Source of the DNA: Acorus gramineus
Taxonomy: Eukaryota > Streptophyta > Magnoliopsida > Acorales > Acoraceae
Direction of reading: 5' to 3'
NCBI GenBank assembly: GCA_030737835.1
Contig: CM060855.1
Coordinates: 3,404,478-3,468,477 of the forward strand
DNA length: 64,000 nucleotides
Below the pieces are notes generated by a model, which had not been told where the DNA came from, made no database searches, and saw nothing but the letters and a program-made list of their open reading frames with translations. Position numbers and translations under genes: made by a program. Within the stretch, counting starts at the first letter, position 1. Each line of letters opens with the position of its first letter. Positions 14,365-58,376 of the stretch are shown here, piece after piece.

Positions 14365-14953
14365 ATTGGTATAAGAGCCTTTTAATTTTGATGTATAAAA
14401 CATATTAGGGTGAATTTTGATTATGAATGCATGTCCGAATAACTTTTAGAAATGTCGATTTAATTCTATAAGTTATTTTGATTCGGATGTTGGTGACAGC
14501 ATGTGTGTGAATATGTCACTATTTATTATTAATGGCATGAATTGTTGTTGCATATGTCTTTGACACTATGATGAATAGATAAAGACACAAACCAATAAAT
14601 GATGGCATGCATGTAAATGAACGATTTATATTATGATAGTGTCGGTGATCATATTATATATGTATAGTCTTAGTCTAGGTGATCATATGATATTGTCTCG
14701 GTGATCTTGTTGTGCATGAATTTATTTCGGTCTTGTTAATTCATGGTGCATGAATTATATCTTGTTTAAATAATTCATGAATTTTAAATATGGCTTATCT
14801 TGTTAATATGTATTTATTTCTATGCATGAATTTTATAAGAGTTAAATAATTCATGTTATGGTTAATGATTTAACAAGTGAGTAATGAAATATGATATAAT
14901 TTTTATGGTCATATTTAGTTGATTATATTATGCTAAGTTTTATGTTTAGTGTT

Positions 14954-15256: not shown

Positions 15257-15371
15257 AAATTGAGATCATAAAAAAAAAAAATCTAGCTAATTATGTATTT
15301 TAGTTAGATTGTTTAATGTGTGGTGTTGAATTTATTCATGACATGAAAAAATAATTTGTTATTTTGCAGCA

Positions 15372-18300
15372 ATGAACCCTACTGCTATCATTAGTTATTT
15401 ATCTGGTATTGAAGCTTTGAGTGGGACAAACTTTAAGAAATGGAAGGAGCAAATTAATATTGTTCTCGGCTGTATGGATTTAGACTATGCTTTAAGAGAG
15501 AATCCTCCCGCAGAGCTTACTACTGAAAGTAGTGAAAACGAAAAAGCTTTGTATGAAAAGTGGGAGCGCTCTAACCGTATGAGTCTAATGATTATGAAAG
15601 GCTCTATCACTCCTGCAATTCGTGGAGCAATCCCGGATTCAGATAATGCAAGGAGCTATATGAAGTCAGTCGAAGCACAATTTGCATCAACTTCCAAATC
15701 TTTGGCAAGTACCCTTATGATTAAAATGATGACAATGAAATATGATGGTCGCAGTGGTGTTCGTGAGCATATCATGAAGATGAGTGATATGGCCTCTCAA
15801 TTAAATGGAATGGACATGGCAATTTCTGAAGGTTTTCTTGTTCACTTCATAATGACTTCTCTTCCTGCGCAATTTAGTCCTTTTAAAATTAACTACAACA
15901 CGCAGAAAAAGGAATGGAAGATGACTGACCTAATTGCTATGTGTGTTCAAGAAGAAGAGAGGCTTAAAAGTGAAAATCCAGATATGGCTCATGTCACCAT
16001 TGCAGGTCCAAGCAAAAAGGCTTTCAAGAAAGGCAAAGGTAAGAAAATAAAGAAAAATAATGAAAATTCTCCCAATGGGCAAAAGGATGAGAATAAGGTA
16101 CGCTGTCACTTCTGTCACAAGAAAGGTCATCTGCGAAAAGATTGTGCTGGTTTTAAGGCTTGGTTGGAAAAGAAAGGTAAAACCAAATGCTTTGTATCTT
16201 ATGAATCCTATTTAGTTAATGTTCCATCAAATACTTGGTGGATTGATACTGGTGCAAGTATTCACATAACGAATTTCATGCAGGGATACCTTACAAGCAA
16301 GAGACTAAATAAAGGAGAGCGAACCATAACTTTGGGAAATGGAACAGAAGTAGATATTGAAGCCATTGGCACTCTACGTTTGGTTTTAGATACTGGTTTT
16401 ATTATGGATTTAGTAGATACAGTTTATGTTCCTGTATTTACTAGAAACCTTATTTCAGTTCCAAAACTTGATTCTTATGGTTATGAATTAAGATTTGGAA
16501 ATAATAAAGTATCTTTGTTCTTTAATTCCCATTTGGTTGGCTCTGGTACTTTACATGGTAATTTTTATTCATTGAATTTAGATTACAATTATGCACAATC
16601 TCTTTTATCCTTTCATGTGAATGATGTAATTTCTAAGAAAAGAAATCGAGTGAATGAAAATTCATCCATGTTGTGGCATAAAAGACTAGGTCACATATCA
16701 AGAGAAAGGATGGAACGTCTTGTTAAAGATGGAATTTTAAATTCACTCGATTTTTCTGATTTTAATACTTGCATCGAATGTATCAAAGGAAAATATACAA
16801 AGATTAAGAAAAAGGGTGCATCTAGGGTCACTGAATTGTTAGAATGTATTCATACTGACATTTGGGGACCCTATCCAACTTTAACCATTAGTTGGCATAA
16901 ATATTTTATTAGCTTTATTGATGAGTTTTCAAGGTATTCTTATGTGTATCTTATTCGTGAAAAATCTGAAGCACTGGATGTTTTTAAAATCTATAAAGCT
17001 GAAGTTGAAAATCAACTTAGTAAACAGATTAAAAGTGTAAGGTCCGATAGAGGTGGTGAATATTATGGAAGGTTCACCGAATCGGGTCAAAATCCAAGTG
17101 CTTTTGCCACATTTTTAAGAGAGAATGGAATTATCGCAAACTACATAATGCCCGGTACTCTTGAGCAGAATGGTGTAGCTGAGCGACGAAACCGTACTCT
17201 AATTGATATGGTGAGAAGTATGATGAGTAAAACAACCTTGCCTGAATTCCTATGGGGTGAAGCTTTGAAAACTGCTGTACACATTCTTAATCGTGTTCCT
17301 AGTAAGGCTGTACCCAAAACTTCTTATGAATTATGGGTTGGTAGGAAACCGAATTTGAATTATTTACGTGTATGGGGGTGTTCAGCTGAAGCTAAAATTT
17401 TCAACCCACAGATAAAGAAGTTGGATTCTAGGACTATAAGTTGTTATTTCATTGGTTATCCTGAAAGATCAAAAGGTTTTCGATTTTATTGTCCTACTCA
17501 TAGTACTAGAATTATTGAAACTAGAAATGCTGTGTTTCTGGAAAATGAGGATTTTAGTGGGAGTATTGGGTTTAAAAATAATACCTCAATAAATAACCAT
17601 AATTTACCGGTTATTCAAGAAAAAGATGTATCCACACAAATAATGGAAAATGGTAGGAATCAAGAGACAACCCATAATGAAGTTGAGCACGTCCCAATTG
17701 TAGAAGTAACTTCACGTAGATCACAAAGAGAGAAAAGACCTGCTATATCAAATGACTATGAAGTTTATCTTAATGAGTGTGATTATGAAGGCTTGGAAAA
17801 TGATCCTATTTCTTATGATCAAGCCATAAAAATTCATAATTCAACTCTATGGTTGAATGCCATGAAAGAAGAGTTGAAATCTATGGAAGACAACAAAGTT
17901 TGGGATCTTGTAGAATTGCCCAAAGGAATCAAAACTGTTGGTTGCAAATGGATTTTTAAAACCAAACGTGATTCCAAGGGCAATATTGAAAGATACAAGG
18001 CCAGATTAGTTGCAAAAGGATACACTAAAAAAGAAGGGATAGATTACAAAGAAACATTTTCTCCTGTTTCTAAAAAGGATTCCCTTAGAATAGTCATGGC
18101 TTTAGTAGCTCATTACGATTTGGAACTGCATCAAATGGACGTTAAAACTGCATTCTTAAATGGTGACTTGCATGAAGAGGTTTATATGAACCAACCTGAA
18201 GGTTTTCAGGATAAAGGCAAGGAGAAAATGGTATGTAGGCTTAAGAAGTCCATATATGGTTTAAAGCAAGCTTCTAGACAATGGTATCTTAAATTTCATG

Positions 18301-19384
18301 AAGTTCTCATTGCTTTTGATTTCAAAGAGAATTTAGTGGATCAATGCATATACCTTAAAGTCAGTGGGAGTAAAATCTGTATTATTGTATTGTATGTTGA
18401 TGACTTATTGCTCGCAAGCAATAATATGGGAATGATTCATGAGACCAAACAATTCCTATCTAGGAATTTTGATATGAAGGATCTCGGTGAAGCATCATTC
18501 GTGATTGGCATTGAGATTCATCGAGACAGGTCTCGTGGGTTGTTAGGATTATCCCAAAAGGCCTATATTGAAAAGGTTCTTAAGAGATTCAACATGCAAA
18601 ATTGTTCAAGCAGTGTTGCCCTGTTGTTAAGGGTGACATATTTTGTGAACAACAGTGTCCCAAAAATAATCTTGAAGTGAAACAAATGACAAACATTCCA
18701 TATGCTTCTGCAGTAGGAAGTATTATGTATGCTCAAGTATGCACTCGTCCTGACATAGCTTATGTAGTGGGTTTGCTTGGTCGATACCAAAGTAATCCAG
18801 GTATTGAACATTGGAAAGCAGTAAAGAAAGTATTGCGTTATTTGCAAGGGACTAAGGACTACATGCTTACATACAGAAGAACAGATAATCTTGAAGTCAT
18901 TGGTTATTCTGATTCTTATTATGCTGGCTGTAAAGATACTAGAAAGTCCACATCTGGTTATCTTTTCATGTTGGCTGAAGGACCTATTTCATGGAGGAGT
19001 TATAAACAAACACTCACGGCTTCTTCTACCATGGAGGCAGAATTTGTAGCCTATTATGAAGCCACATGTCATGCAATGTGGTTAAGAAATTTTGTCTCAG
19101 GGTTGCAAGTTGTTGATTCAATTATGAAACCCCTGAGAATATACTGCGATAATGATGCTGCTGTGCGTTTCTCCAAGAATAACAAAATATTAGGAGGATC
19201 GAAGCATATCGATATTAAGTATTTAGTTGTAAAAGAGAGAGTTCATAATGGAATTGTCTCTATTCAGCACATAAGTACTTTACTCATGCTAGCAGACCCT
19301 TTGACTAAAGGGCTTCCACCAAAGCTCTTTAAAGATCATGTTGCGCGCATGGGCTTGGTGGAAAGCTTATCAAATTTGGTCTAA
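15372..19384 (+). CDS. Copia gag-pol polyprotein, one frameshift between RT and RNase H
   Basis: The first frame runs 15372-18680. Gag has a CCHC zinc knuckle at residues 245-258. The protease has DTG at 292-294. The GAG-pre-integrase segment has HKRLGH. The integrase has catalytic Asp496, Asp559 and Glu604. The reverse transcriptase has YVDD at 1008-1011. The frame is lost at about 18619-18621, where the alignment to the family pattern is short by one base. It continues in another frame to 19384 with the RNase H ([24 protein letters not shown]). The start is the first ATG after the leader and fits the copia Gag N-terminus. One polyprotein, cut by its own protease, would normally supply particle, integrase and RT/RNase H; here RNase H is out of frame. 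Confidence 0.92.
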
Positions 19385-27484: not shown

Positions 27485-28700
27485 AAGGAGTCCAAGGCAG
27501 GCCATTGATCATGTCACTTAAATTTTAGGTTAGAAAATTGTTTATGAAAGGAAAAATATTTTGCAGTCTAATTTATGACATTGACATATCTAGATTTGTT
27601 TTTGAGATAATGCAAATATATATTCAAAATGCTAATTGTTAATAAAATATGCCATTTAAAATATGAAAAGAGAGAGAATCATATAATTAGTCTTTTTCCA
27701 GCTTTGGATCCCAAAAGCCAAAATGTCATGAATCCCATCAAATGGTAACGAGATACTTCCCTAAATGCCCCTGAATTTACCATTCTATTTTTTGTTTCAC
27801 CACTGTCTATTTTCACCATATATTCTCAACATGCCCCTGCTTACCAGATCACACCCAAAAATGCCCTCGCAAATTTGATTCATTTATGATGTGCTGCTTT
27901 ATTAGAGATAAAGCAGCACAATGCTTTATTAAAGTGTTTTTTTTAAGACCTTTATAAAGGTCACTGATGTTTTTTTTTTTTTTAAAGTGTGGCTGGAGAC
28001 AATTTCTACCCCGGTCATATTGATGTTTGATGTTGGATTTATATCTTGTATTCAGAATTCTACAAAATCAATGAAAAACCATTAACAATAATTTTTTTTT
28101 TTTAAATTGAAAATATGATTTGCCACTATGAATGAAACGTGAGTCGAAGGTGATTAGTTCTTTCAAAGGTGAAGGAGAGCGCATGTGCATTTTCACGTAT
28201 AATGACGATGCTGTAATTCTTTAATATGTGATGGAACATTATTATCATGTATCATGTTATGTATATCCTTTTGGGAGTTCGATTGTCTCGTACCATTAAT
28301 GGTAATCCTAGGTATTGAGATGAGATAGATAGATTTGTAACCCCAACACAAAATCCAAAAAAAAAAAATGGCATAAAATTTTTATTCTGTCTCATGCTGA
28401 TTGTGTTTTGCTTTTCATTTTCTCTGTTTCGATTCCATTTTGTACCACACAAAAGGACTCCAAAAAATAGGAAAAAGTTTCACTAATTGGAGTCATCAGA
28501 GGCTTTGCTTTAAGAAATTCCATTAAGCATGACATTAGTACAACAAAAGCACAACTAATACATATATTGTATGGGCACAGAACACAAGGCATATATGCTT
28601 TGGCACTCCAAACAAGTAAAAGAAGAGAACATTTTGTTTCCTTCCTCTCATATGTGCCATGGTCATCCTAAACAACCAAAACCACACTTACAAAAAAAGA
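27485..28700. other. Intergenic spacer
   Basis: No gene is recognised. T-rich tracts (about 27968-27983 and 28090-28105) occur; otherwise nothing is seen. The 3' end of the extensin transcript probably lies near its right edge. Confidence 0.5.
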
Positions 28701-28796
28701 AAATAAAACATATTTTTTTATTTTATTGATAAAATGAGAGCTCTTCAACCATCCCATTGTTGGATGAACTTGACCATCTTGGAAGATCCTCATCTC

Positions 28797-28890
28797 CTGA
28801 AAAGGAAAAAAAAAAAAAAATTACATTTGAGTTATTGAATAATGAGAAATGAATGTGCATGTGTAGTATTAACTATTAACTGATGCTTAC
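28797..28890 (-). other. Probable intron in the 3'-UTR of the extensin gene
   Basis: On the minus strand, 30 bp past the stop codon, there is a donor GTAAGC (28890 downward). After 94 bp comes an acceptor: a long T run followed by CCTTTTCAG ending at 28797. Both sites are close to ideal for plants. A single intron in the 3'-UTR is also known for the maize HRGP gene, which supports the call. It does not affect the protein. Confidence 0.65.
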
Positions 28891-28919
28891 ATTGTTTTTC
28901 CTTTGGAAGAACAGCCATC

Positions 28920-30210
28920 CTAGTAGTGGTGAGGAGGAGGTGGTGAAGCATACTTGTAAACATGAGGTGGTGGTGGTGACTTGTACTTGTAAACTGGTGG
29001 TGGGGGTGGGGGTGATTTATAGTGATAGGGAGGGGGAGGGGGTGATTTGTACTTGTAAACTGGTGTAGGTGGTGGTGGTGGTGATTTGTAGTGGTAATGA
29101 GGGTGGTGGGGAGGTGGTGGTGGTGATTTGTAGTGGTAATGAGGGTGGTGGGGAGGTGGTGGTGGTGGTGACTTGTACTTATAAACTGGTGGAGGTGGTG
29201 GTGGTGATTTGTAGTGGTAGGGTGGTGGAGGTGGTGGTGGTGATTTGTAATGGTAGGGAGGAGGAGGAGGTGATTTGTACTTGTACACTGGAGGAGGTGG
29301 TGGTGGAGATTTGTAGTGGTAGGGTGGTGGTGGTGGTGATTTGTACTTGTACACTGGAGGAGGTGGTGGTGGAGATTTGTAGTGATAGGGTGGTGGAGGT
29401 GGTGACTTGTAAACTGGTGGAGGTGGTGGTGGAGATTTATAGTGGTAGGGTGGTGGTGGTGGTGACTTGTACTTGTAGACTGGTGGAGGAGGAGGTGGTG
29501 ACTTGTAGTGGTAAGGAGGAGGAGGGGGTGATTTGTACTTGTAAACTGGTGGAGGGGGTGGTGGAGATTTGTAGTGGTAGGGTGGTGGAGGTGGTGACTT
29601 GTACTTGTAAACTGGTGGAGGTGGTGGTGGAGATTTGTAGTGGTAGGGTGGTGGAGGTGGTGACTTGTACTTATAAACTGGTGGAGGTGGTGGTGGAGAT
29701 TTGTAGTGGTAGGGTGGTGGAGGTGGTGACTTGTACTTATAAACTGGTGGAGGTGGTGGTGGAGATTTGTAGTGGTAGGGTGGTGGAGGTGGTGATTTGT
29801 ACTTGTACACTGGTGGTGGTGGTGGTGGTGGTGGAGATTTGTAGTGGTAAGGTGGTGGGTGGTGGTGGAGATTTGTAGTGGTAAGGTGGTGGTGGTGGAG
29901 ATTTGTACTTGTACACTGGTGGTGGTGGTGGTGGAGATTTGTAGTGGTAAGGTGGTGGAGGTGGTGACTTGTACTTGTAAACTGGTGGAGGTGGTGGTGG
30001 TGGTGACTTGTAGTGGTAGTGGGGGTGGTGAGGAGGTGGTGGTGGTGTTGAGTAGTGGTAGTGAGGATGGTGGGGAGGAGAAAGGTGTTTCTTTGGGGGT
30101 GGTGGTGAGGAGTATGAATAGGTTGCTGAGGTCTCTGAAGGGAGGGTTAGAGAGAGAGCAACAAGAAGGAATAGTGTAGCAATGGAGAAGGCCCTCTTTG
30201 AGCCCTCCAT
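28920..30210 (-). CDS. Extensin (hydroxyproline-rich cell-wall glycoprotein), frameshifted
   Basis: The start at 30210 (MEGSKRAF) is preferred over an in-frame ATG eight codons upstream because it gives a standard signal peptide: a basic N-terminus, a hydrophobic core (ATLFLLVALSLTL), and cleavage near SETSA/TYS, about 24 residues in. The mature protein is SPPPP/SPPPPP blocks alternating with YHYK and VYKYK. Ser-Pro(4-5) is the hydroxylation and arabinosylation site, and YxY pairs form isodityrosine cross-links, so it is a structural wall protein. The frame breaks at 29850-29868: 19 bases separate two repeat anchors where 18 or 21 would stay in frame. Read literally, translation ends near 29737 with a Thr-rich tail. 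Downstream, about 316 codons remain open in the extensin frame to TAG at 28920-28922. Either the break is very recent or it is a sequencing error in a repeat. Confidence 0.85.
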
Positions 30211-38088: not shown

Positions 38089-40410
38089 ATGACATATTTA
38101 TCATACAAAGTAGATTCTCCTTCTATTATAAGATATCTTGAACCATTGACAGGGGATGTTTTTACCGCTCGATTTGCGGATTATCATTTTGATGAGACAA
38201 TATTCCCGTCGTTAGGGGGAGAAAATCTGTCGCCAGAAGAACGACGTGAACTTACATGGAAAACTCCATCTTTGTCTCATCTTGATCCTCGCACTAATCA
38301 ATGTGAAACTGAAGTGCAAAGAATCACCCATCTTCAAAGAATTGCGCATCAATTGCCAGATGCATTCAATGATGCAGCAAAAGTGATGAAATCACATATT
38401 CCAGCTGCTAATACTCCAGCTCGAATTAATGTTCCAATAGGAAATACTGTTAATATGCCGGCTAATGAATCAACAAAAATACGCCTGAAGCGTGGAAGAC
38501 CTATAGGCTCAAAAGATTCAGCTCCCCGAAGGAGAAAAACAATGAAGAATAATTCTCTAGAAGAGTATGAAACACTTGAAAGACCCACAATAATAACTCC
38601 TACAGAGGAAGAAGTCCCTGAAGTGACACAAGTCCCTGAAGAGATTGACGTCCCTGAAGTGACGCCCGTGCATAAAGAACAAGTACATGGAAATGAAAAA
38701 ATTTCCATAAATTATGCAAATTCACAAATATTGTGGGATCGAAAGCAAGTGCTTGTTGATGATATATTCTCATTTGCAGTAGCTACAGAAATCATTTCAG
38801 ATAATGATTTAGAACCACGTTCAGTGGATGAATGCAGATGAAAAAATTGTTGGCCACAATGGAAAGCTGCTATTCAAACAGAATTGGATTCACTTGCAAA
38901 ACACCAAGTATTTGGACCAGTAGTCCTAACCCCTGAAGGTGTTAAACCAGTAGGATGTAAATGGGTGTTTGCGAGAAAACGAAATGAAAGAAACGAGATT
39001 GTTAGATACAAAGCTCATCTTGTGGCACAGGGTTTCCTGCAGAGACCTGGGATAGATTTTGAAGAGACATATTCTCCTGTGATAGACACAATCACATTTC
39101 GGTATTTAATTAGTCTTGTAGTCTCAGAAGGACTTGACATGCAGCTAATGGATGTGGTTACTGCATATTTATATGGAAAATTAGATACCGACATCCTGAA
39201 GGACTAAAATTGCCTGAAGCAAAACCACGAAACATGTACTCAATCAAGCTAAGACGATCCTTATATGGATTAAAGCAATCTGGACGAATGTGGTATAACC
39301 GTCTTAGTGAGTATTTAATAAAAGAAGGATATGTCAATGATCCAATATGCCCCTGTGTATTTATTAAGAAAACGAAACTCGGATTTACCATTATTGCAGT
39401 ATATGTTGATGATATTAATCTAATTGGGACTCCTGAAGAGCTCGAAAAGGCTTCCGAATATCTGAAAAAGGAGTTTGAAATGAAAGATCTTGGAAAAACA
39501 AGATATTGTCTCGGCTTGCAAATTGAGCAAAGTTCAAATGGGATACTTGTTCATCAAACAACATATGTTGAAAAAATCCTGAAGCATTTTAATATGGACA
39601 AATGTCATCCATTAAGTACTCCAATGGTAGTAAGGTTACTTGACCCAAAGAAGGACCTTTTTCGTCCAAAAGAAGATACTGAAAATCTTCTTGGTCCTGA
39701 AGTACCATATCTTAGTGCAATTGGTGCCTTATTATTTGGCCCAATGCACTAGACCTGACATTGCATTTTCAGTTAATTTATTGGCCAGATTTAGCTCTAC
39801 ACCAACTCGAAGGCATTGGAATGGTGTGAAGCACATTTTTCGTTATCTTCGTGGAACGTCAGACATGGGTCTATTCTATGCAAAGGATTCCAATAATGGT
39901 GCACAACTAAAGAGTTATGCAGATTCAGGATATCTTTCAGATCCTCACAAGGCTCGCTCACAAACAGGCTATGTATTCACTTGCGGTGGCACAGCAATCT
40001 CTTGGCAATCTACGAAACAGACTTTGGTCGCCACGTCTTCTAACCACTCTGAGATTCTTGCACTCCACGAAGCAAGCCGGGAATGCGTGTGGATAAGGTC
40101 TTTGGTTCATCATATTCGTACTGCATGCGGACTATCTCTCATTACAGATGTTCCAACAACTATATATGAAGACAATGCAGCATGCATTGCTCAAATCAAA
40201 GGGGGATATATCAAGGGTGATAGAACAAAGCATATTTCTCCAAAATTCTTTTACACTCATGAGCTCCAGCAGAGACATGAAATTGATGTTCAACAAATTC
40301 AGTCAAAGGACAATCTTGCAGATTTGTTTACTAAAGCTTTGTCGACATCAACATTCAAGAAGCTGGTGTATGAAATCGGGATGCGACGAGTTTGCGACCA
40401 AAATTCTTGA
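38089..40410 (+). pseudogene. Copia pol remnant: end of integrase, RT and RNase H, multiply broken
   Basis: The first frame (38089-38841) starts in the integrase C-terminal region (PSIIRYLEPLTGDVFTARFA) and the proline/valine-rich linker. It ends at a TGA at 38839-38841. RT continues in frame from 38842 past the stop (GCKWVFARKR, VVTAYLYGKLD) to 39207. It shifts near 39195, where a short deletion removes the start of the PEGL motif. RT resumes at 39210-39752 (YVDD) and shifts again at about 39735, so RNase H lies at 39640-40410 (CTRPDIAFSVNL, SYADSGYL, DLFTKAL). The parts are collinear with a copia pol. At least one stop and two frameshifts make it non-functional. Confidence 0.93.
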
Positions 40411-43315: not shown

Positions 43316-43933
43316 TTTATGTTGATTTTTTTTTGTTTAATTTAACCTAAAACATACAATAAAAAATAAAAAAAGAGAATGGAAGAGTTGAGTACTGGAA
43401 AAACTTTGAATAATAATAATTTTTTGAATTGAATATTAATGTAACTTCACAATAATTATACATTACAATTTAATTACAAATTTACAACAAGATATATTTT
43501 AACATTAATTGAATAACTATTATTTTAAAAGAACATTACAAATTGAATATTACATTACAATAAGTGAATGTAAATTACAATAATAAAAATGTTAAAATAA
43601 TTATCCATCTCAAAACATTTTATGTGACTCAGGGCTTAAAAAAAAAGCAAGGAAAATGCTAAAATCAGTATAAAACTCAAACCATACATATTTTCATTTA
43701 AAAAAAAAATAATAGTAAACATGAAGAAATGCTTTGACAAAACGTGCATATTACTCAATTTTGAGTAGAATGAACCTAATTTTTATTAAATGTAAAAAAA
43801 TATTTAATAAAATATATACATCATCTAATCAAGTATATGCTTCATTAGATTTTTAACAAAGTAGCAGATATGCCAAAAACATATCCTTCATTTCAAAAAC
43901 ACATTAGTTACATGATTATCTTGCCTTCCATTA
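43316..43933. other. Upstream region of the PPR gene
   Basis: This is AT-rich sequence with a dispersed-repeat copy at about 43745-43860, ending some 75 bp before the PPR start codon. No convincing TATA box is seen. Confidence 0.5.
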
Positions 43934-46009
43934 ATGACAAAAATGATGGACCGTCGGAGACTCGCGAACCTCATCAGAGACTCCGCCAACTCTTCGTCTC
44001 TCATACGCGGAACCCAATCTCACGCGGCGTCACTGAAGCTGGGTTTCCAATCCGATCTCATCATGAACAACGATCTGCTCTGTATGTACTCGAAATGCCG
44101 TCGCCCAGACCTCGCGCGCCAACTGTTCGACACAATTCCCGAACGAAACGTCGTTTCATATATGGCTCTCATGACCTCCCACTTGAGCTCCGGCGACCCT
44201 GAGTCGTCTTTAATGGCGTTTCGAAGTTTGGGTTCTTCTCCGGGGATCGCCCACAATGAGTTCACGCTCTCGGCCGCCTTGAAATGCTGCGGAGTCTCGG
44301 GCGATGCTGGGAGAGGATCGCAGGTCCACGCGGCGTGCGTCAAGTTGGGGTTTGAGAGCCAGCCGTTTGTCGGGAATTCGATCATCGCGATGTATTCGAA
44401 GTGCGGGTCGATTGGTGATTCGGTGCGGGTGTTCGATGCGATGCGTGAGAGGAGGAGCTTGGTGAGTTGGAATGCGATGATCGCGGGTTATGTGAATGCG
44501 GGGTGTTCAAGGAAGGCGGTGTTGGTGTTTGCGGAGATGCGGAGGAATTATGAGACGCCCGATGAGTTTACGTTGTCGAGCGTTTTGAAGGGGTGCGGAG
44601 CCGACGGGGCTTTTGCAGAAGGAAAGCAAATACATGCTTATGTTGTTGTGAGTGGGTTCCCCGTTTCGTTGAAGACTTCGGTTGCAAGCGCGCTCATTGA
44701 TTTCTACGTGAAGTGCGGGCGATTGGTGGAAGCTCGGAGAGTGTTTGATCGGACTGTGGTGAAGAATGAAGTCTCTTGGACCGCGATGATGGCAGGTTAT
44801 GTTCAAGAAGGATGTTTATACGAAGCCATGGATTTGTTTCGCGAATTAAGGAAGGTTGAAACGATTGTCGATGGATTTGTCCTGTCGAGTTTCGCCGGAG
44901 TGTTTGCAGATCTCGCTTTGATTGTGCAAGGAAAGCAAATCCATGCGTACACTACGAAGATATCTTGCGTTTTAGATGTGTCGGTGGCCAATTCGATCGT
45001 CGACATGTACTTGAAGTGTGGACTAACGGATGATGCAATGAAGCGGTTCGAGGAGATCTCCTCGAAGAATGTGGTATCTTGGACGGTCATGATCACCGGT
45101 TATGGGAAGCATGGGCGTGCAAGGGAAGCAATTTGTTTATTCGAGGCGATGCGATTGGAGATGATCGAGCCGGATGAAGTGGCTTACTTGGCCGTGCTTT
45201 CTGCTTGTAGTCATGCCGGACTTGTTAAAGAGAGTCGCAAGTATTTCGAGAGTTTACGAAGAGACTCTCGCATGCAACCAAAAGTGGAACACTATGCTTG
45301 CATGGTGGATGTCCTTGGTCGAGCAGGGCGTCTTGAAGAAGCGAAGAGCCTCATCGAAGACATGCCCATTGAAGCGAATGTCGGGATTTGGCAGACATTG
45401 TTGAGCGCATGTAGATTGCACAAGGATCTAAAGATGGGTAGAGAAGTGGGAGGCATTCTAATGGAGTTGGACGAAGGGAACGGGGTGAACTATGTGATGG
45501 TTTCGAATATCTACGCGGAGGCTGGAGAATGGAGAGAGTGCGAGAGGATTCGAGGATTGATGAGGAGAAGAGGCTTGAAGAAGGATGGAGGGCGTAGTTG
45601 GATCGAGATCAAGAAGGAGATGCATAACTTCTATGGAGGGGACGACTCGCACCCGTTGATGGGAAGAATACGCGAGGCGCTTATGGATGTTGAGAGGAGA
45701 ATGAGAGAAGAGGTTGGCTATGTTTCGAGGACCGGTTTCGCGATGCATGACATCGAGGAGGAGTCAAAGGAGGACAATTTGAGGATGCATAGTGAGAGGC
45801 TCGCAGTCGGGTTGGCGCTGGCTTGCGGGGGTTCGTCACCGGAGATTAGAGATGTGATTAGGGTGTTCAAGAATTTGAGGGTGTGTGTGGACTGCCATGA
45901 GTTCATGAAGGGGGTGTCAAAGGTGGTTGGGAGGGTGTTGGTGGTGAGGGATGCTTGTAGGTTCCATAGATTTGAAGGTGGGGTGTGTTCTTGTGGGGAC
46001 TATTGGTGA
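43934..46009 (+). CDS. PLS-class pentatricopeptide repeat protein with C-terminal DYW domain
   Basis: A single intronless frame encodes 691 aa. From about residue 25 to 520 it consists of P, L and S repeats with the usual signatures (NSIIAMYSKCG, VSWNAMIAGYV, DEFTLSSVLKGC, GKQIHAY, YLAVLSACSHAG, CMVDVLGRAGRLEEA). E/E+ and DYW regions follow. The DYW domain keeps the deaminase metal-binding residues His619 and Glu621 (HSE), Cys651 and Cys654 (CVDC), and ends in CGDYW, so a catalytically competent C-to-U RNA editing factor of mitochondria or plastids is expected. The order of motifs recalls Arabidopsis At3g15130, from memory. The N-terminus is short; ATGs at 43943 and 43946 are equally possible starts. 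The gene is far more GC-rich than its flanks, as is usual for intronless monocot PPR genes. Confidence 0.93.
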   Translation: MTKMMDRRRLANLIRDSANSSSLIRGTQSHAASLKLGFQSDLIMNNDLLCMYSKCRRPDLARQLFDTIPERNVVSYMALMTSHLSSGDPESSLMAFRSLGSSPGIAHNEFTLSAALKCCGVSGDAGRGSQVHAACVKLGFESQPFVGNSIIAMYSKCGSIGDSVRVFDAMRERRSLVSWNAMIAGYVNAGCSRKAVLVFAEMRRNYETPDEFTLSSVLKGCGADGAFAEGKQIHAYVVVSGFPVSLKTSVASALIDFYVKCGRLVEARRVFDRTVVKNEVSWTAMMAGYVQEGCLYEAMDLFRELRKVETIVDGFVLSSFAGVFADLALIVQGKQIHAYTTKISCVLDVSVANSIVDMYLKCGLTDDAMKRFEEISSKNVVSWTVMITGYGKHGRAREAICLFEAMRLEMIEPDEVAYLAVLSACSHAGLVKESRKYFESLRRDSRMQPKVEHYACMVDVLGRAGRLEEAKSLIEDMPIEANVGIWQTLLSACRLHKDLKMGREVGGILMELDEGNGVNYVMVSNIYAEAGEWRECERIRGLMRRRGLKKDGGRSWIEIKKEMHNFYGGDDSHPLMGRIREALMDVERRMREEVGYVSRTGFAMHDIEEESKEDNLRMHSERLAVGLALACGGSSPEIRDVIRVFKNLRVCVDCHEFMKGVSKVVGRVLVVRDACRFHRFEGGVCSCGDYW

Positions 46010-46820
46010 AATCTTAAGTTTGGATGGATGTCATACCCCAAGCTTTGCTCTTCATCAAACTGAATGATTTTGGAATGTATATTGGCTGTGTGTGTGTGTG
46101 TCAGATTCCCTACCACAGAGCCTACTATAGAGACGCTGCTGCACGAGCTCTCGTTTGTATGTATCATTAGTAGGTGGCAGCTTTGTTTACAGCATTGTAA
46201 GCAATGAAAATCTGACTTGATTCTTTTTTTTTTTTCTCTTATAGTTAAAGCAGAAACATTAGATGGACAACATATTCATTGGTTGTGCAAATGCTACTTA
46301 TAGAGGAAATGAGTGAGAAGAAATACCCCAGTTGCCTGGACACTGCAAAGCTTTTCCAAGGATAAAAACATGACAAAGGTGAATGTTTGGGATAGTTTCT
46401 GAATATCTGAGGAACAAGCAGACAGATTTTGAGTTACACCAATCATGATGAGTGTTAGATGTTCAGAAGAACGTATTTTCATATGCTTTTCAGAGTTATT
46501 TTGGAACATTTTTTAATGTAATTATTCATTTTTACATACATATCAAGAAAGTTTCTTATTCTTTATGTTCAAAGCGTATTTTACACAAATTGACAATATT
46601 TATACATTTAATATGCATAATCATTTTTTTTTTTTCTCGTAGAGACATATTTTAAAATTCAAAAATCTAAATTTGGCAGTGTTCTAAATTTTGCATGTTA
46701 TAAATTGGAGAAAGAATTAGCATTCAAAGATTCATCAAAACTTCTAAATCTGATTCACCAAATCAACAAAATCTTCAATTAAATCAATTTTGACTTCTCC
46801 AACAAATCAACAAGATCTCC
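46010..46820. other. 3' flank of the PPR gene and spacer
   Basis: It contains a short (TG)n tract at about 46086-46102 and T-rich runs at about 46225 and 46626. No gene is recognised. Confidence 0.5.
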
Positions 46821-48476
46821 AACATATTTTGCAAATTAGCATTAACAACTCAATTAAATTAGCATTTGCAACCAATTCAACCCACCAGACCCTATAAAAA
46901 GGGCACTGCAGAGAAAAAGGAGAGCATCTCTTCATTCAGCCAAGAAGAATTTTATTTTCAGTCTTTGTCCTTTCTTTTTTATTTTGAGTTTTTTTTTTTT
47001 TTTGGTATTAGAGACATAGATTCTATTGTGTTTTCAATAAAAGTGTCTTTTTACTTTATTTTCATGGATCGTTTTTATTTTTATTCTAGAATATCACCAA
47101 CTATGGTAAGTTAGAGAATCCTCCCATCAAGAAGAGGATTCAACCCGTGAATTTGAGCGATTGATTCTTTTCTTTATGCATTGATGTTTTTTATTTGTTC
47201 TTCATGTTTATTTAGTTTCTTCAACTCAGATTTCTTTTTATTATGAGTATTTTTAAATCTTTCATCGTTCTGCTTAGATAGGATACGGTTGATGTTTTAT
47301 AAACCCTATTTTAAATCGAGTAAAAGTAAACTGCTTTTGAAATTTTTTGTTTTCATTAAGTGCAAAAGAAAGAACATCACGATATTCGTGGGGTGGATTT
47401 CCAATCCTTGGTGGTCTTTTTCATATATTAATTTCAATTTTAGCTGTTATAATAGTTTTCTTAAATCAACCCTTGATATTTTATTTTTAAACCTTTTTTG
47501 CCGAGAATTAATAATTTTTTATTTTTACTCGTTCGCTTGCATGTGAGATCGACCTCTTACTATCACTTTCTAACAAGAATAGGTAAAAATTTTATATTTT
47601 GTTGGCAAAGATGAAATTTAAACGACAATTTTGAAATTATCATACAAATTTGTTGGTTGCTTTGATTGTCGTTAAGATCTTGTCTTTGTCAATAAAATAT
47701 AAAACTCTTACCTATTCTTGGTAAAAAGTGATAGTAAGAGGTCGATCCTATAGGAAGCCTATTGAAGCGAACGAGTAAAAATAAAAGATTATCAATTCTC
47801 GACAAAAATGTTAAAAAAATAAAATATCAAAGTGTTGATTTAAGAAAACTATTCTAACAGCTAAAGTTGAAATTAATATATGAAAAATGTCACCAAGGAT
47901 TGGAAATCCACCTCATGAATATCGTGATGGTTCTTTCTTTTGCACTTAATGAAAACAAAATATTTCAAAAACAGTTCACTTGTACTCGATTTAAAAATAG
48001 GATTTATAAAGTATCAACCGTAACCTATATAAGTAGAACGATAAAAGATTTAAAAATACCCATAATCAAAAGAAATCTGAGTTGAAAAAACTATATAAAC
48101 ATGAAGAACAAATTAAAAACATCAATGCATAAAGAAAAGAGCCAAACACTCAAATTCACGGGGTGGAATCCTAGAATACCATGGTTGGTGATATTTTAGA
48201 ATAAAATTAAAAATGATTCATGAAAATAAAATAAAAAGATATTTTTATTGAAAACACAATAGAATCTATGTCTCTAATACCAAAGAAACAAAAAAAAAAA
48301 AAAAAAAAATTCAACACAAAAAGAGAAAGAACAAAGACTGAAAATAAAATTCTTCTGGCTAAATGAAGAGATGCCCTCTTCTTTCTCTGCAGTGCCTTTT
48401 TATAGGGTTTGGAGGATTGAATTAGTTGTAAATGCTTATTTGATTGAGTTGTTAATACTGATTTACAAAATATGTT
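46821..48476. repeat. Giant palindrome: two ~810-bp inverted arms with a 37-bp loop
   Basis: The left arm 46821-47628 and right arm 47666-48476 are inverted copies across their whole length. Matching landmarks include AACATATTTTG/CAAAATATGTT at the outer ends, CCCTATAAAAAGGG-CACTGCAGAG versus CTCTGCAGTGCCTTTTTATAGGG, the CGATATTCGTGG/CCTCATGAATATCG block, and AACGACAA/TTGTCGTT at the loop. Identity looks to be about 85-90% with small indels. Each arm has a TATA-like motif near its outer end pointing inward, so transcription from either would give a long hairpin RNA. No protein is encoded and no target duplication was recognised. Confidence 0.92.
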
Positions 48477-49019
48477 AGAGCATCTCCAAAAGCATCCCCA
48501 ATGTTTCCTTACATTGTGGGGAAAAAAAATGCTCCCTATAATATGTAAGGAGTCTTTTTTTTTTTATCACTCCAAAAACCTCTTCATTCTTATCCTATCT
48601 TCGTTCCAAATGACCAATTATCCCAATTCATATATATAAATTACAAGATATTCAAATATCAATGAATCAAAGCACATTCTAAAATTTATCAAGACTTGGA
48701 ATAAAGATCATTTAAATAAAATTATTAATAATGAATAAAAATTAATTAAAAGTAAATTAAAATCATTAAATAAAACATGAAAAATATAATCAACCACTAC
48801 AAGTTTTTAAAATTTTAAAGATATGATAAACTACTACAAAATCTTGACAACGATAACATTCAAAACATTAAAATTCATGATAATTGGGTTAAAGTGGTGA
48901 TTCGAAACATTAAACATTAAAAAAAAAAATCCAACCCAATCACCGCTTTTACATAGACACAGGAATCGATCACCACTTTCAATCCAATCAAACCCAACTC
49001 AACCCAACAGCAGCATCTC
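48477..49019. other. Spacer starting with a GAGCATCTCCAAAAGC motif
   Basis: The AGAGCATCTCCAAAAGCATCCCC at its left edge resembles termini of common plant MITEs, but no partner end was found. The rest is AT-rich with no gene. Confidence 0.4.
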
Positions 49020-49022
49020 TAA

Positions 49023-49253
49023 GGGTGTATTTGGTTGCGTGATCGTGCTGTGATTGTGATTGCAAGAAGGTGCGCTTATAATCGTACAATCAAACAGTTT
49101 TACTGTAGCAGCTTCCTGCACATAGATTTCAGGCAAATAGTGTCCAAAAGCTGCGATTTCAAAAAGCTGAGAAAGTGAGCTTTCTGCAGAATTAGTTTTG
49201 CAATCGCAGATTCCTGCAGAATCAGTTTTACAATCGCGCAACCAAACGCATCC
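49023..49253. mobile_element. Tourist-like MITE
   Basis: This 231-bp element has inverted ends GGGTGTATTTGGTTGCG and CGCAACCAAACGCATCC, flanked by TAA at 49020-49022 and 49254-49256. TIR, length and 3-bp TWA duplication fit a PIF/Harbinger (Tourist) MITE. Confidence 0.9.
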
Positions 49254-49319
49254 TAAATATAAAAAAAAATCACAAATTTGCCTTTGATCACAAATCACAT
49301 ATCAATCACCATTTTTTTC

Positions 49320-49500
49320 CAGAGTCTGAGGCCCTAGCTCCTGACATTCCACCCCCGATTGTCCCTCTGCCAAACGAGGTCCACACCCACCATTCCAGTG
49401 ACAACCCGCTCCCTCGCAATCAACCTGTCAGTCATCCAATGCTGTCAACTCGAAGCGCCCCCATGAGAAAGATCCGGATTGGAGGGAGAATCTCCTAAGA
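49320..49500 (+). pseudogene. Possible fossil of a copia pol linker
   Basis: This C-rich island translates in one frame to a proline-rich stretch ending VSHPMLSTRSAP, reminiscent of the HPMxTRSK motif that precedes RT in copia pol. No RT follows, so it is at most a small relic. The evidence is composition plus one degenerate motif. Confidence 0.3.
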
Positions 49501-49761
49501 GAGTTGGATCAATGTTTTTGGAGTCTAAGGCCCACGCTTTGCATCTCTCCTTAATTTATGCAAAATGTTAAACTCGGTCATTTTTACCAACCAGAATTCA
49601 GACCACACATGTTTTTATATTGTTTCATTTCGAGTTGAGTGAACCCATTCTTTATGAGTGTAAGTAAACAATTAACGAGTTATATACATCATCTAATGAA
49701 GTATATATTTTACTAAATTTCTAACTTACTGTATTTTATATAAAAAAAAGAGGTGTGTAAC

Positions 49762-50561
49762 TAGGCCTGTCAACGGGTCGGGTCTGGACCCGGACCCGAC
49801 TCGTGACAGGACCCGGTGGATTCGGGTCCAATCCAGGACCTGGCGGATTCGGGGAAATGTGGACCCGGACCCGGACCCATGTGGACCCATCCGGATGGTT
49901 GGATAAAAAAAAAAAAAAAAAAGAGAAGAGCTCATGTATTTGTTTGCCTTATCATTCTATTTGAAATTTTTTGTAATAAAACATTATTGTTAATGAGACT
50001 ATGTTTGAATATAATTTTATACAATTCAAAAGAAGTAAATGAATTATTAAACAACATCGAAAACAATAATCACCAACATAAAAAACATATTAACCTAAAT
50101 AATAAACATAACTAACCTAAACAACATTCAAAACAATTTAACCTAAACAACATTCAAAACAATAAACACTAACATATTAACCTAAATAATAAACATAAAT
50201 CATGCAACAAACTAATTAATCATACAAATTCAAAAGCTAATAAGTTAATTGTTCAAAACAAACCAATTTATAGGCTTGTTATGATTATGATTTTATGAAC
50301 TTGTAGATACAAAAATAAATTAAGTAAGAAATAAAATTATGTATCAATTAATACTAATGGTCTTGTAATATATGAACATATTTTAATAAAACAATCGGGT
50401 CTCGGGTCCAACGGGTCAGGGCGGGGTGGACCCGGACCCGACCCGTTTGTTTGTTCGGGTCCAACTCGGGTCGGGTCCAAATCGGCTCGGGTATATTACA
50501 CGTGTAATCAGGTCTGGATCGGGTCTGATCCGGGTCCGGACCAGACCTGTTCACAGGCCTA
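49762..50561. mobile_element. hAT-type MITE with GGGTCC-rich arms (older copy)
   Basis: The ends TAGGCCTGTCAACGGGTC and, inverted, TAGGCCTGTGAACAGGTC are flanked by TGTGTAAC and CGTGTAAC, an 8-bp target duplication with one mismatch. Subterminal arrays of GGACCCGGACCCG-type motifs enclose an AT-rich centre with AACCTAAAYAAYATTCAAAACAAT repeats. The 8-bp duplication and these termini fit hAT. Many CG positions of the second copy at 57528 are TG or CA here. Confidence 0.9.
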
Positions 50562-50727: not shown

Positions 50728-53490
50728 ATGCTTGAATCAAGAGAAAACCCACTCATCTCCTCCATCGGAGACTACACTTTGAAGGGGATCATCTCGCGAG
50801 GTCCCCTCTCGGTGGTGTGGAGGGCGGTGGACCGCCGATCGGACGGCCAGCCTGTGGCGATCAAACGGGTCAACCTCTCCGGGCTCAACCGGACCCTCTC
50901 GAGCTCCCTGGATTGCGAGCTCGAGTTCCTCCGAAGCGTCAGCCACCCCAACATCGTCCGTCTCATCGACGTGATTTGGGTCAGTTTTTTATTGTTTCGT
51001 TTTACGTAGCAGAGTTGGTGAAATTTGGGTTTTTGAATGGATTGAGAGATACCAAGTTGGGAAATTTTGGGCCAGTTTTGATTGTTTCTTTTACATAGCA
51101 CAGTTGGTGAAATTTGGGTTTTTGAATGGATTGAGAGTGGGAAATTTTGGGTCAGTTTTGATTGTTTCTTTTACATAGCACGGTTGGTGAAATTTTGGTT
51201 TTTGAATGGATTGAGAGATACCAAGTTGGGATTTTTTGGTTTTTGTGAGGGTTTTGTGGATACCCACTTCGCAAAATTTGGTTTTGAGCAGTGTTGGTGA
51301 TGCTGGTTTTTTTTTCATGGTTGTGATAAGATGTTGTAGATTTAGATTTGGTTTGTGTTCTTCTAGTTTGATTTAATCAGATATGGAAAGTCATCTAGTG
51401 ATTCCTACAGAGGAGTTTCATGTAGTCAAAGTGTGAAGAGAGTTGGTGAGATGGATAATTTGAACTGATTATAGATAATTGGATAATTTTACGATGCGGT
51501 GTTGATAGACTCGGACACTTTTTGTATTCATTTCTATAGATGCCACATCACCTAACACAGTATATGAAATCACCTAATGTGGTGTATATATTCTTATTAC
51601 AAAAAATGTAAAAATTGTATGCTTTCGTTTTATTTGAGCATGTATTTTACTTTTTTGAAAAAAGTATAATATTTCATTAGGCAAGTATATACTTCAAAAG
51701 AAAAATAAATCAAAACATGTATAAAAATGACTTCAGGAATGAAAATGATATTGTTGTGGTGTTTAGGTTTTCAATATGAATTTTCCTATCAGATTGATGT
51801 AGATAGACACGGGAAAACCCACTTAATTAGGTCACATCATTTTAAGTGATATTTAATTAAGCAGACCCATTTAATTTACTTGGTCCAAATATTTGTTTAT
51901 GCATAGTAACAGAGTTTCAGTGATTTTTTCAACAATTCACGTATAATTCGTGAATTTTTGGTGAGCTGAATTTTGGATGAATTAAACCTACATTTAACAT
52001 ATTTTGAAGTTTCAATGAATTTACCGTGTACAAATGAATCACTTGTTATTTCAAATAACTCACTAAACATGACGAAATTTGAGACTTTCATCTTAACACC
52101 TAATGCTCAATCTAGTGTTGCGTAATGTTTGATGATATTATATTTGGAAATGACAAAGTATATACAGCTTAAGATGATCTATGATGTGCATTTTAATTTA
52201 AGGAAAACTCCACATTTTTCCATCTTGCATAATTGAGAATTATTATTAAGTCCTGCATTTGTAGTTTTGTACTATAGCTTGATATCCATCAAAAGATGCA
52301 CTTATGTTGATTTTTTTTTCTGCACTAGGAAGATGAATTTGTATTCCTCGTGATGGAGTTCTGCGCTGGTGGAGATTTGGCATCTTATATCTGTCTCAAA
52401 GGCAGAGTTCAAGAACAGGTGGCGAGGAAGTTTGCTGGACAGATTGGTGAGTGTTTCTTTGCCTAATTATGGTGTTGTTTTGAGGCATGGTTGAGATTTT
52501 TTCCCTCTGATGCATGATTGAAGTTAAACTCAGTCCTCCCAATTTTATTTCTACCGTTTAATGGACTGGAATTCTTTTATTTTTGTTGTGTTATACAGGA
52601 GCTGGTTTGAAGGTGTTACATGCTCACCACATTATCCATCGGGACTTAAAACCTGAGGTAGGCATATCATGCGCCATCTATAATTTGAAGAACGCGTTAT
52701 CTTCACCGGACTAAAGTGGATGCGATTGGTGGAACAGAATATTCTACTCTCTACTTCTAACAACAACCCTGTGTTAAAGATTTCTGATTTCGGTCTGTCA
52801 AGGTACTGTATAACAATACATTGCTAGCTGAAAATAGTATAAAACTTGAACAATGATATTACCTAAGATTAATTAAGATTGTGCAAACAGAGTTGTACTT
52901 CCAGGCGAATATGCAGAAACAGTTTGTGGGTCGCCATTATACATGGCACCGGAGGTTTTGCAGTTCCAAAAATACAATGAGAAGGTATAAGTAACCCTCT
53001 CTATATGGTCCTTGAAAAAGCCAAGGAAGATTCGAATGCATTCATTTCTCTTACCAGGTTGACATGTGGAGCGTCGGGGCCATTCTCTTTGAGCTTCTGA
53101 ATGGATACCCTCCTTACCGTGGAAGGACAAACGTTCAGGTAAAGCATCTCTATGAGTCAGGTTTTAGTAATTGTTTGGCACCCACTTCATTTGCCAAAGC
53201 AAATCTTCCTCAGCTCTTGCAGAACATCATGAAGAGTACGTGCCTGCCATTTTCAGAGCTTATCCTTCCTGGTTTAAACCGTGATTGCGTTGACGTGTGT
53301 TTGAGGCTATTATGTAAAAATCCAGGTCGGTCAAGTTAACATCTTCGAATAGAATATGTAATACCTTGTGATGTTTATGTTTCTCTAGCTTTGATTGTTA
53401 AATTGATTCATGTTTATCATTGCAGCTAACCGCCTGTCATTTGATGAGTTCTATCACCACAAATTCTTAATCAAGGAATCACCTTGTTAG
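50728..53490 (+). CDS. ATG1t: Truncated ATG1-type autophagy serine/threonine kinase (ATG1t-like)
   Basis: Eight exons join in phase to 281 aa: 50728-50979, 52329-52446, 52599-52657, 52738-52802, 52891-52984, 53058-53138, 53214-53325, 53426-53490. The kinase domain keeps Lys46 (VAIK), Glu64, HRD 137-139 (HRDLKPEN), DFG 160-162 and APE 184-186. The ATG1-specific block [39 protein letters not shown] and [13 protein letters not shown] make the family assignment firm. The glycine loop is degenerate (SRGPLSVVW, a single Gly). The protein stops 20 residues after the last helix, without the long regulatory and MIT-like C-terminal region of full ATG1. That is the plant-specific ATG1t architecture, linked to starvation-induced autophagy. 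The ATG at 50728 starts the frame with no better upstream choice. Confidence 0.92.
51005..51240 (+). repeat. Triple repeat of about 85 bp in intron 1 of the ATG1t-like gene
   Basis: Three tandem units share TTGGTGAAATTTGGGTTTTT, GAATGGATTGAGAG and GTCAGTTTTGATTG-like blocks. The last block includes GGGTCAGTTTT, which is also the sequence at the exon 1 donor (TGG/GTCAGT), so the repeat seems to have spread from the splice-donor region. Confidence 0.85.
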
Positions 53491-57519: not shown

Positions 57520-57527
57520 CATACAAT

Positions 57528-58376
57528 TAGGCCTGTCAACGGGTCGGGTCCGGGTCGGGTCGGGGTGGACCCGGACCCGACCCGTGACAGGACCCGGCGG
57601 GTCCGGGTCCAACCGAGGACCCGGCGGGTCCGGGGAAATGTGGACCCGGACCCGGACCCGTCGGACCCGGGTCGGGTCCGGGTCCGACCCGACCCGGATG
57701 GTTGGGTAAAAAAAAAAAGAGAGAAGAGCTCATGTATTTGTTTGTCTTATCATTCTATTTGAAAATTTTTGTAATAAAACATTATTGTTAATGAGACTAT
57801 GTTTGAATATAATTTTATACAATTCAAAAGAAGTAAATGAATTATTAAACAACATCTAAAACAATAATCACTAACATAAAAAACATATTAACCTAAATAA
57901 TAAACATAACTAACCTAAATAACATTCAAAACAATATTAACCTAAACAACATTCAAAACAATAAACACTAACATATTAACCTAAATAATAAACATAAATC
58001 ATGCAACAAACTAATTAATCATACAAATTCAAAAGCTAATAAGTTAATTGTCCAAAACAAACCGATTTATAGGCTTGTTATGATTATGATTTATGAACTT
58101 GTAGATACAAAAATAAGTTAAGTAAGAAATAAAATTATGTATCAACTAATACTAATGGTCTTGTAATATATGAACATATATTAAAAAAAACAGTCGGGTC
58201 CAACGGGTCCAACGGGTCGGGGCGGGGTGGACCCGGACCCGACCCGTTTGTTTGTTCGGGTCCGCCGGGTCGGGTCCAACTCGGGTCGGGTCCAAATCGG
58301 GTCGGGTATATTACACGTGTAATCGGGTCCGGGTCGGGTCGGGTCCGGGTCTGGACCCGACCCGTTGACAGGCCTA
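57528..58376. mobile_element. hAT-type MITE with GGGTCC-rich arms (younger copy)
   Basis: CATACAAT flanks both sides (57520-57527 and 58377-58384), a perfect 8-bp hAT duplication. The termini are TAGGCCTGTCAACGGGTC and its inverse GACCCGTTGACAGGCCTA. Both arms (57528-57710 and about 58195-58376) are arrays of GGGTCCGGGTCGG motifs on opposite strands. The AT-rich centre matches the copy at 49762-50561 nearly base for base. It has no ORF of its own, so it must be mobilised by a transposase elsewhere. Confidence 0.95.

Follow-up and report, generated by a model that had tools for sequence, protein, structure and literature searches.

Two oppositely oriented, nested LTRs of a Ty3/gypsy-type family very probably account for a long palindrome in the Acorus gramineus genome

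Long endogenous inverted repeats of Arabidopsis, IR71 among them, feed DCL enzymes and are known by their small RNAs. In this study, a long palindrome within 64,000 nucleotides of Acorus gramineus DNA (assembly GCA_030737835.1, contig CM060855.1, positions 3,404,478 to 3,468,477 of the forward strand; this whole stretch is called the window, and positions are counted from its first letter) was compared with such repeats, with the Mu killer locus of maize and with nested long terminal repeats (LTRs) of plant Ty3/gypsy retrotransposons. It resembles the IR71-type repeats in having a long, nearly complete stem, whereas the locus in the window is known from sequence alone.

The Mu killer report (PMC3440606) describes a dominant silencing locus in which an inverted transposon copy lies beside a gene and could give a foldback RNA, an arrangement resembling that in the window; however, Mu killer inverts part of the transposase gene, whereas the window palindrome is formed by non-coding, diverged LTRs. 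According to the same report, silencing Mu killer plants contain short antisense transcripts, read-through from the flanking genes was rejected as their source, and the reach of the hairpin model is questioned, although long hairpins may still play a part. Mu killer is the nearest functional parallel to the palindrome. An inverted pair of solo LTRs acting as a hairpin locus was not found in the titles and abstract openings covered by a literature search, and such a case may exist in print.

In structure, the locus is like the solo or isolated LTRs of nested plant Ty3/gypsy elements, with TG...CA ends, an internal TATA box and AATAAA, target duplications of 5 bp around other family members, a primer-binding site that follows the LTR in some relatives, and gag, protease and RVT_1 domains in one relative (L023). 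The sole difference is that the nested LTR in the window lies in the opposite direction near the end of the first, which produces a palindrome. We regard the palindrome as ordinary nested LTRs: very probably, two LTRs of one Ty3/gypsy-type family came to lie one within the other, tail to tail, and the palindrome is a by-product of the abundance of that family, without dedicated function.

BLAST comparison of the window with itself paired 46813–47629 with 48485–47665 at 84.4% identity over 845 columns. Together with the arm alignment, this placed the left arm at 46813–47642 (+ strand) and the right arm at 47650–48485 (− strand; bases past approximately 48476 already belong to the next repeat). 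The arms, of approximately 820–835 bp, are far beyond chance, and the long inverted repeat reported at 46821–48476 by a first-pass annotation of the sequence is therefore real. The same annotation had called it near-perfect, which is too strong: global alignment of the arms gave 721 matches, 85 mismatches (58 transitions and 27 transversions) and 16 gap events that cover 54 columns, or 89% identity without gaps (85 of 806 aligned bases differ) and 84% with gaps. Eight unbroken identical runs reached at least 21 bases, the longest being of 42, 30, 26, and 26. Its limits were too narrow as well, since the left LTR begins at 46453, 368 bases earlier; no partner for this outer part, from 46453 to 46821, was found in the window. 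For RNA of 46821–48476 (1656 nt), the predicted fold had −966 kcal/mol with 90% of bases paired, including 730 left-arm bases paired with the right arm, compared with a mean of −310 kcal/mol (standard deviation 5.7, range −301 to −321) for eight mononucleotide shuffles. A long hairpin RNA, as had been proposed, is thus possible, and the predicted fold has the long stable stem of a hairpin producing small interfering RNAs (siRNAs).

One arm was used to search the genome of the plant itself (398.6 Mb, 137 contigs), and the best 40 of 280 candidates were scored; because of this, the family count is a lower bound. At least 42 match rows were obtained, being the 2 arms in the window and 40 rows from 39 other places, and among the matches listed the arms were the sole adjacent pair in opposite directions. 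A single-copy progenitor, suggested earlier as something to look for, was not present among the places searched; the arm belongs to a repeat family. Twenty of the 39 other places were retrieved with their flanks for comparison. All 20 were single units of approximately 1.2 kb, some interrupted or shortened, and none was an inverted pair. The start TGTTAGAT was present in 14 of them. Target duplications of 5 bp were exact in seven (L009, L010, L013, L014, L015, L021, and L026) and had one mismatch in four (L016, L018, L025, and L027); in the remaining nine, no duplication was found or an end was missing. L021 and L026 have identical flanks and are probably one place that was duplicated. L016 and L018 are also duplicates, alike at 99% over 9.7 kb on contigs C94 and C73, reflecting either a recent duplication or an unmerged haplotype.

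TG...CA ends with 5-bp target duplications are therefore found at the level of the family. No target duplication was found in the window around its own LTRs, the right one of which is cut; ATGAG, directly before the left LTR, is a candidate duplication without a second copy in the window. Since the window copies are broken, missing duplications are expected, and the identification as LTRs rests on the family.

Fuller family members gave further evidence. A primer-binding site, GGCGCCGTTGCC, follows the LTR directly in 2 of the 20 retrieved copies (L023 and L024), where the LTR continues into ATTGGCGCCGTTGCCGGGG, which we take to be the complement of the 3′ end of tRNA-Asp, a common primer-binding site of plant gypsy elements. 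A search of the window with ARAGORN gave no tRNA gene, so that the primer tRNA is named without identification by a tool, and no primer-binding site was found in the window itself. Three separate frames after the LTR of L023, searched individually, matched Retrotrans_gag (PF03732, 1.9e-17), Asp_protease_2 (PF13650, 4e-6), and RVT_1 (PF00078, 2.2e-20), whereas four frames of L024 had no domain match. Thus, gag, protease and a reverse transcriptase of the RVT_1 type, which distinguish Ty3/gypsy from copia elements, were found after the LTR in one copy. On contig C5, two LTRs (L033 and L034) have the same orientation, lie at a distance of approximately 9.3 kb from each other and are 98% identical over 1303 aligned columns, an alignment that extends beyond the LTR. 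A primer-binding site follows both, and GTTTGGGGGTATT stands just before the second; because of the repeated primer-binding site they look like a tandem arrangement, probably a tandem element with common LTRs. The ends, target duplications, primer-binding site and protein domains of the family identify the arms as Ty3/gypsy-type LTRs, arranged tail to tail as the first-pass annotation had suspected. A reading of the TTTGGTATTAGAGAC stretch in the arms as a caulimovirus leader or copia sequence was dropped, because the LTR extends past this stretch and the primer-binding site comes after the CCAACA end.

The junction of the two arms carries the case for nesting. Two types of 3′ end occur in the family, type A (...AATCAAAGCAACCAACA) and type B (...AATTTCGAAATCATCAAATCTGCCACCAACA). 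The left LTR (46453–47650, + strand), which starts with TGTTAGATG at the position from which the copies align, is of type B and breaks off at ...ACAAATT, approximately 11 bp short of its expected end. The right LTR (47651 to approximately 48476, − strand) is of type A with a complete 3′ end, reading TGTTGG on the + strand, and starts at 47651, exactly where the left LTR breaks off; this boundary is shared with the copies, and approximately 370–400 bp of its 5′ part are missing. Each end type also occurs elsewhere in the family, the left one in L011, L014–L016, and L018. AAATT at 47646–47650 may be one copy of the target-site duplication made when the right LTR inserted; its second copy was not found in the window.

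In a search with the junction, the best 40 of 192 candidates were scored. At the 39 other scored places the main match begins at query 58–62 (47647–47651), the same boundary as the end of the right LTR; these places also gave shorter antisense matches to query 1–40, because the arms are alike, and none gave a match spanning the junction. The missing ends were sought in the window. A pattern made of the expected far end of the left LTR and its flank had no match at up to 3 mismatches. On the right, family copies align to 48475–48485 and not beyond, and when the first 420 bp of 15 copies were used as queries for the missing 5′ part (loose scoring, low-complexity filter off), only weak matches were obtained outside the arms, the best at 14817–14709 (E 2.7e-5, 67%) and 43603–43391 (2e-4, 60%); another at 48633–48729 (5e-4, 64%) lies on a strand that does not fit the right LTR. 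A 12-base pattern of the LTR start matched exactly only at 46453, with five two-mismatch matches, giving 6 in total compared with 9.2 expected by chance. The missing ends may lie elsewhere in the genome.

These features suggest the following course of events. A first element would have left a + strand LTR at 46453, and a later member of the family, with the other 3′ end type, would have inserted in the opposite direction approximately 11 bp before the end of that LTR. Both are now isolated LTRs without adjoining interiors; the right LTR, cut by a further repeat, has lost its 5′ third. The junction is seen in the sequence, and we infer the order of the insertions. One ordinary insertion nested in another suffices, and the unusual origin that had been suggested is not needed. 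If 200–300 copies of 1.2 kb were placed at random (a number assumed because it is near the candidate numbers of the junction and arm searches, not one of confirmed copies), one would lie inside another approximately 0.1–0.3 times per genome, half of these inverted. Plant genomes contain many repeat families, and across all of these, nested pairs of this kind should turn up, as a matter of arithmetic rather than of test.

That a single LTR insertion was duplicated in inverted form, with the arms diverging afterwards, is unlikely, although several observations speak for it or otherwise weigh against nesting. A tree was built from 22 rows (the 20 copies and both arms), in which both arms fall within a starred set of 7 rows whose inner order is poorly resolved. 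Under the approximately unbiased (AU) test, neither the arms as sisters (p 0.445) nor a grouping of the left arm with L009 (p 0.238) was rejected. In the tree alignment, the highest identity of the right arm is to the left arm (89%). The end branch of the right arm (0.078) is longer than that of the left (0.065), the opposite of what a simple clock would give if the right LTR came later. Nesting, moreover, rests on one junction, because neither the other target duplication nor the lost end of the left LTR could be located in the window. Derived sites were counted in 777 gap-free columns of five rows (both arms and three relatives): the arms have 5 in common, joint second among the ten pairs, against 27 and 31 private to each. 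This is no more than some separate insertions share, as L009 and L011 have 6 in common and the left arm and L011 have 5. Changes from C to T or from G to A make up 16 of the 27 and 21 of the 31 private ones, which would be expected if the DNA had been methylated. By BLAST identity, the right arm stands at 84.4% to the left arm, and 11 of the 20 copies exceed this value. The main point against duplication is that the 3′ end types differ at the junction, because one duplicated LTR would give equal ends. Since the AU test rejects neither grouping, the reading as independent insertions depends on the 3′ end types and, more weakly, on the site counts, and not on the tree.

A silencer like Mu killer, in which read-through from a neighboring gene or from the left LTR promoter would yield hairpin siRNAs that silence the family in trans, is a slightly poorer candidate and improbable. 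The arms do contain promoter-like signals. As the first-pass annotation had pointed out, each has one inward-facing TATA box: CCCTATAAAAAGGG at 46890–46903 (+ strand) and CCCTATAAAAAGGC at 48407–48394 (− strand), the latter placed by sequence and copy comparison, and TATAAA[AT] is found in all 22 rows of copies and arms. An open frame for a PPR protein at 43916–46009, on the same strand as the left LTR, has an E motif and a complete DYW deaminase domain and ends 443 bp before that LTR. Transcription that began at the left TATA box (46890) or in this PPR-DYW gene could continue into the right arm and give an RNA that folds, and such a hairpin might be cut by Dicer-like enzymes. The very stable predicted fold and the nearby PPR-DYW frame favor such a silencer, as do the arm 21-mers, which match all 20 retrieved loci at 12 to 146 positions each, a figure to which simple sequence may contribute.

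Against it, an AATAAA polyadenylation-like signal lies approximately 150 bp after the TATA box in each LTR, at 47036–47041 (+ strand) on the left and, from copy comparison, at 48244–48249 (− strand) on the right; it is found in 20 of the 22 rows, being absent from L015 and L028. Because of this position, transcripts may end before reaching the right arm. Between the arms there are 85 mismatches and 16 gap events; only 53 distinct 21-mers would form perfect duplexes, and the closely related copies L021–L028 match 0–2 of these. The position of AATAAA and the small number of perfect 21-mers speak against regular production of a hairpin RNA. Silencing by a hairpin at this locus is possible, and that the hairpin has a function appears improbable from these features. 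Rated lower still is a counterpart of Mu killer made of LTRs only, in which the opposed LTRs behind the PPR-DYW gene would have yielded hairpin siRNAs that helped to silence the older branch of the family.

An assembly artefact, such as an inverted read or haplotig join, is very improbable: palindromes are difficult to assemble, but 85 substitutions and 16 gap events separate the arms, and only the right arm borders on the repeat that begins at 48475. A MIRNA gene or a terminal inverted repeat transposon with very long inverted ends can be practically dismissed: the foldback shape would fit, but the 20 retrieved copies are single and not palindromic, the junction is unique among the 40 scored places, and Rfam gave no match to a described RNA family in 46400–49400 at the gathering threshold.

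The nested LTRs were damaged further on the right side. The dispersed repeat that cuts the right LTR, identified by genome search, occupies 48475–49325 and starts with TTA-GAGCATCTCCAA; it was found at 39 or more other places (best 40 of 378 candidates scored). After 49022 it is interrupted by a small insert (49023–49252), which resembles a miniature inverted-repeat transposable element in its inverted ends, is flanked by TAA on both sides, and is absent from L030 and L031. These two copies join 49013/49022 to 49248–49325 and continue approximately 300 bp further; thus, the repeat in the window resumes after the insert and is shortened at 49325 by approximately 300 bp or more.

Other features were noted in the window. 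A long open copia-type frame at 15342–18677 has matches to gag, integrase, and RVT_2, and RVT_2 spread over two frames at 38842–39749 marks a broken copia-type copy. The region 28001–30000 has a strong excess of G over C (skew 0.55) and a 472-aa frame on the − strand for which Pfam gave no match at E 0.01. A repeat is present twice, at 49759–50540 and 57525–58355, in copies that are 88% alike; the former has inverted ends rich in GGGTCGGGTC, and its limit at 50540 is merely that of the locus compared. At 50969–51217, an 80-bp unit is repeated three times in direct order, at 74–96% of the reference copy.

The locus illustrates that an impressive palindrome can arise when two members of one repeat family insert in the ordinary way. 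As it stands, the palindrome matters mainly for annotation; should small RNAs be detected, inverted LTR pairs formed by accident would be one source of signals that silence a whole family.
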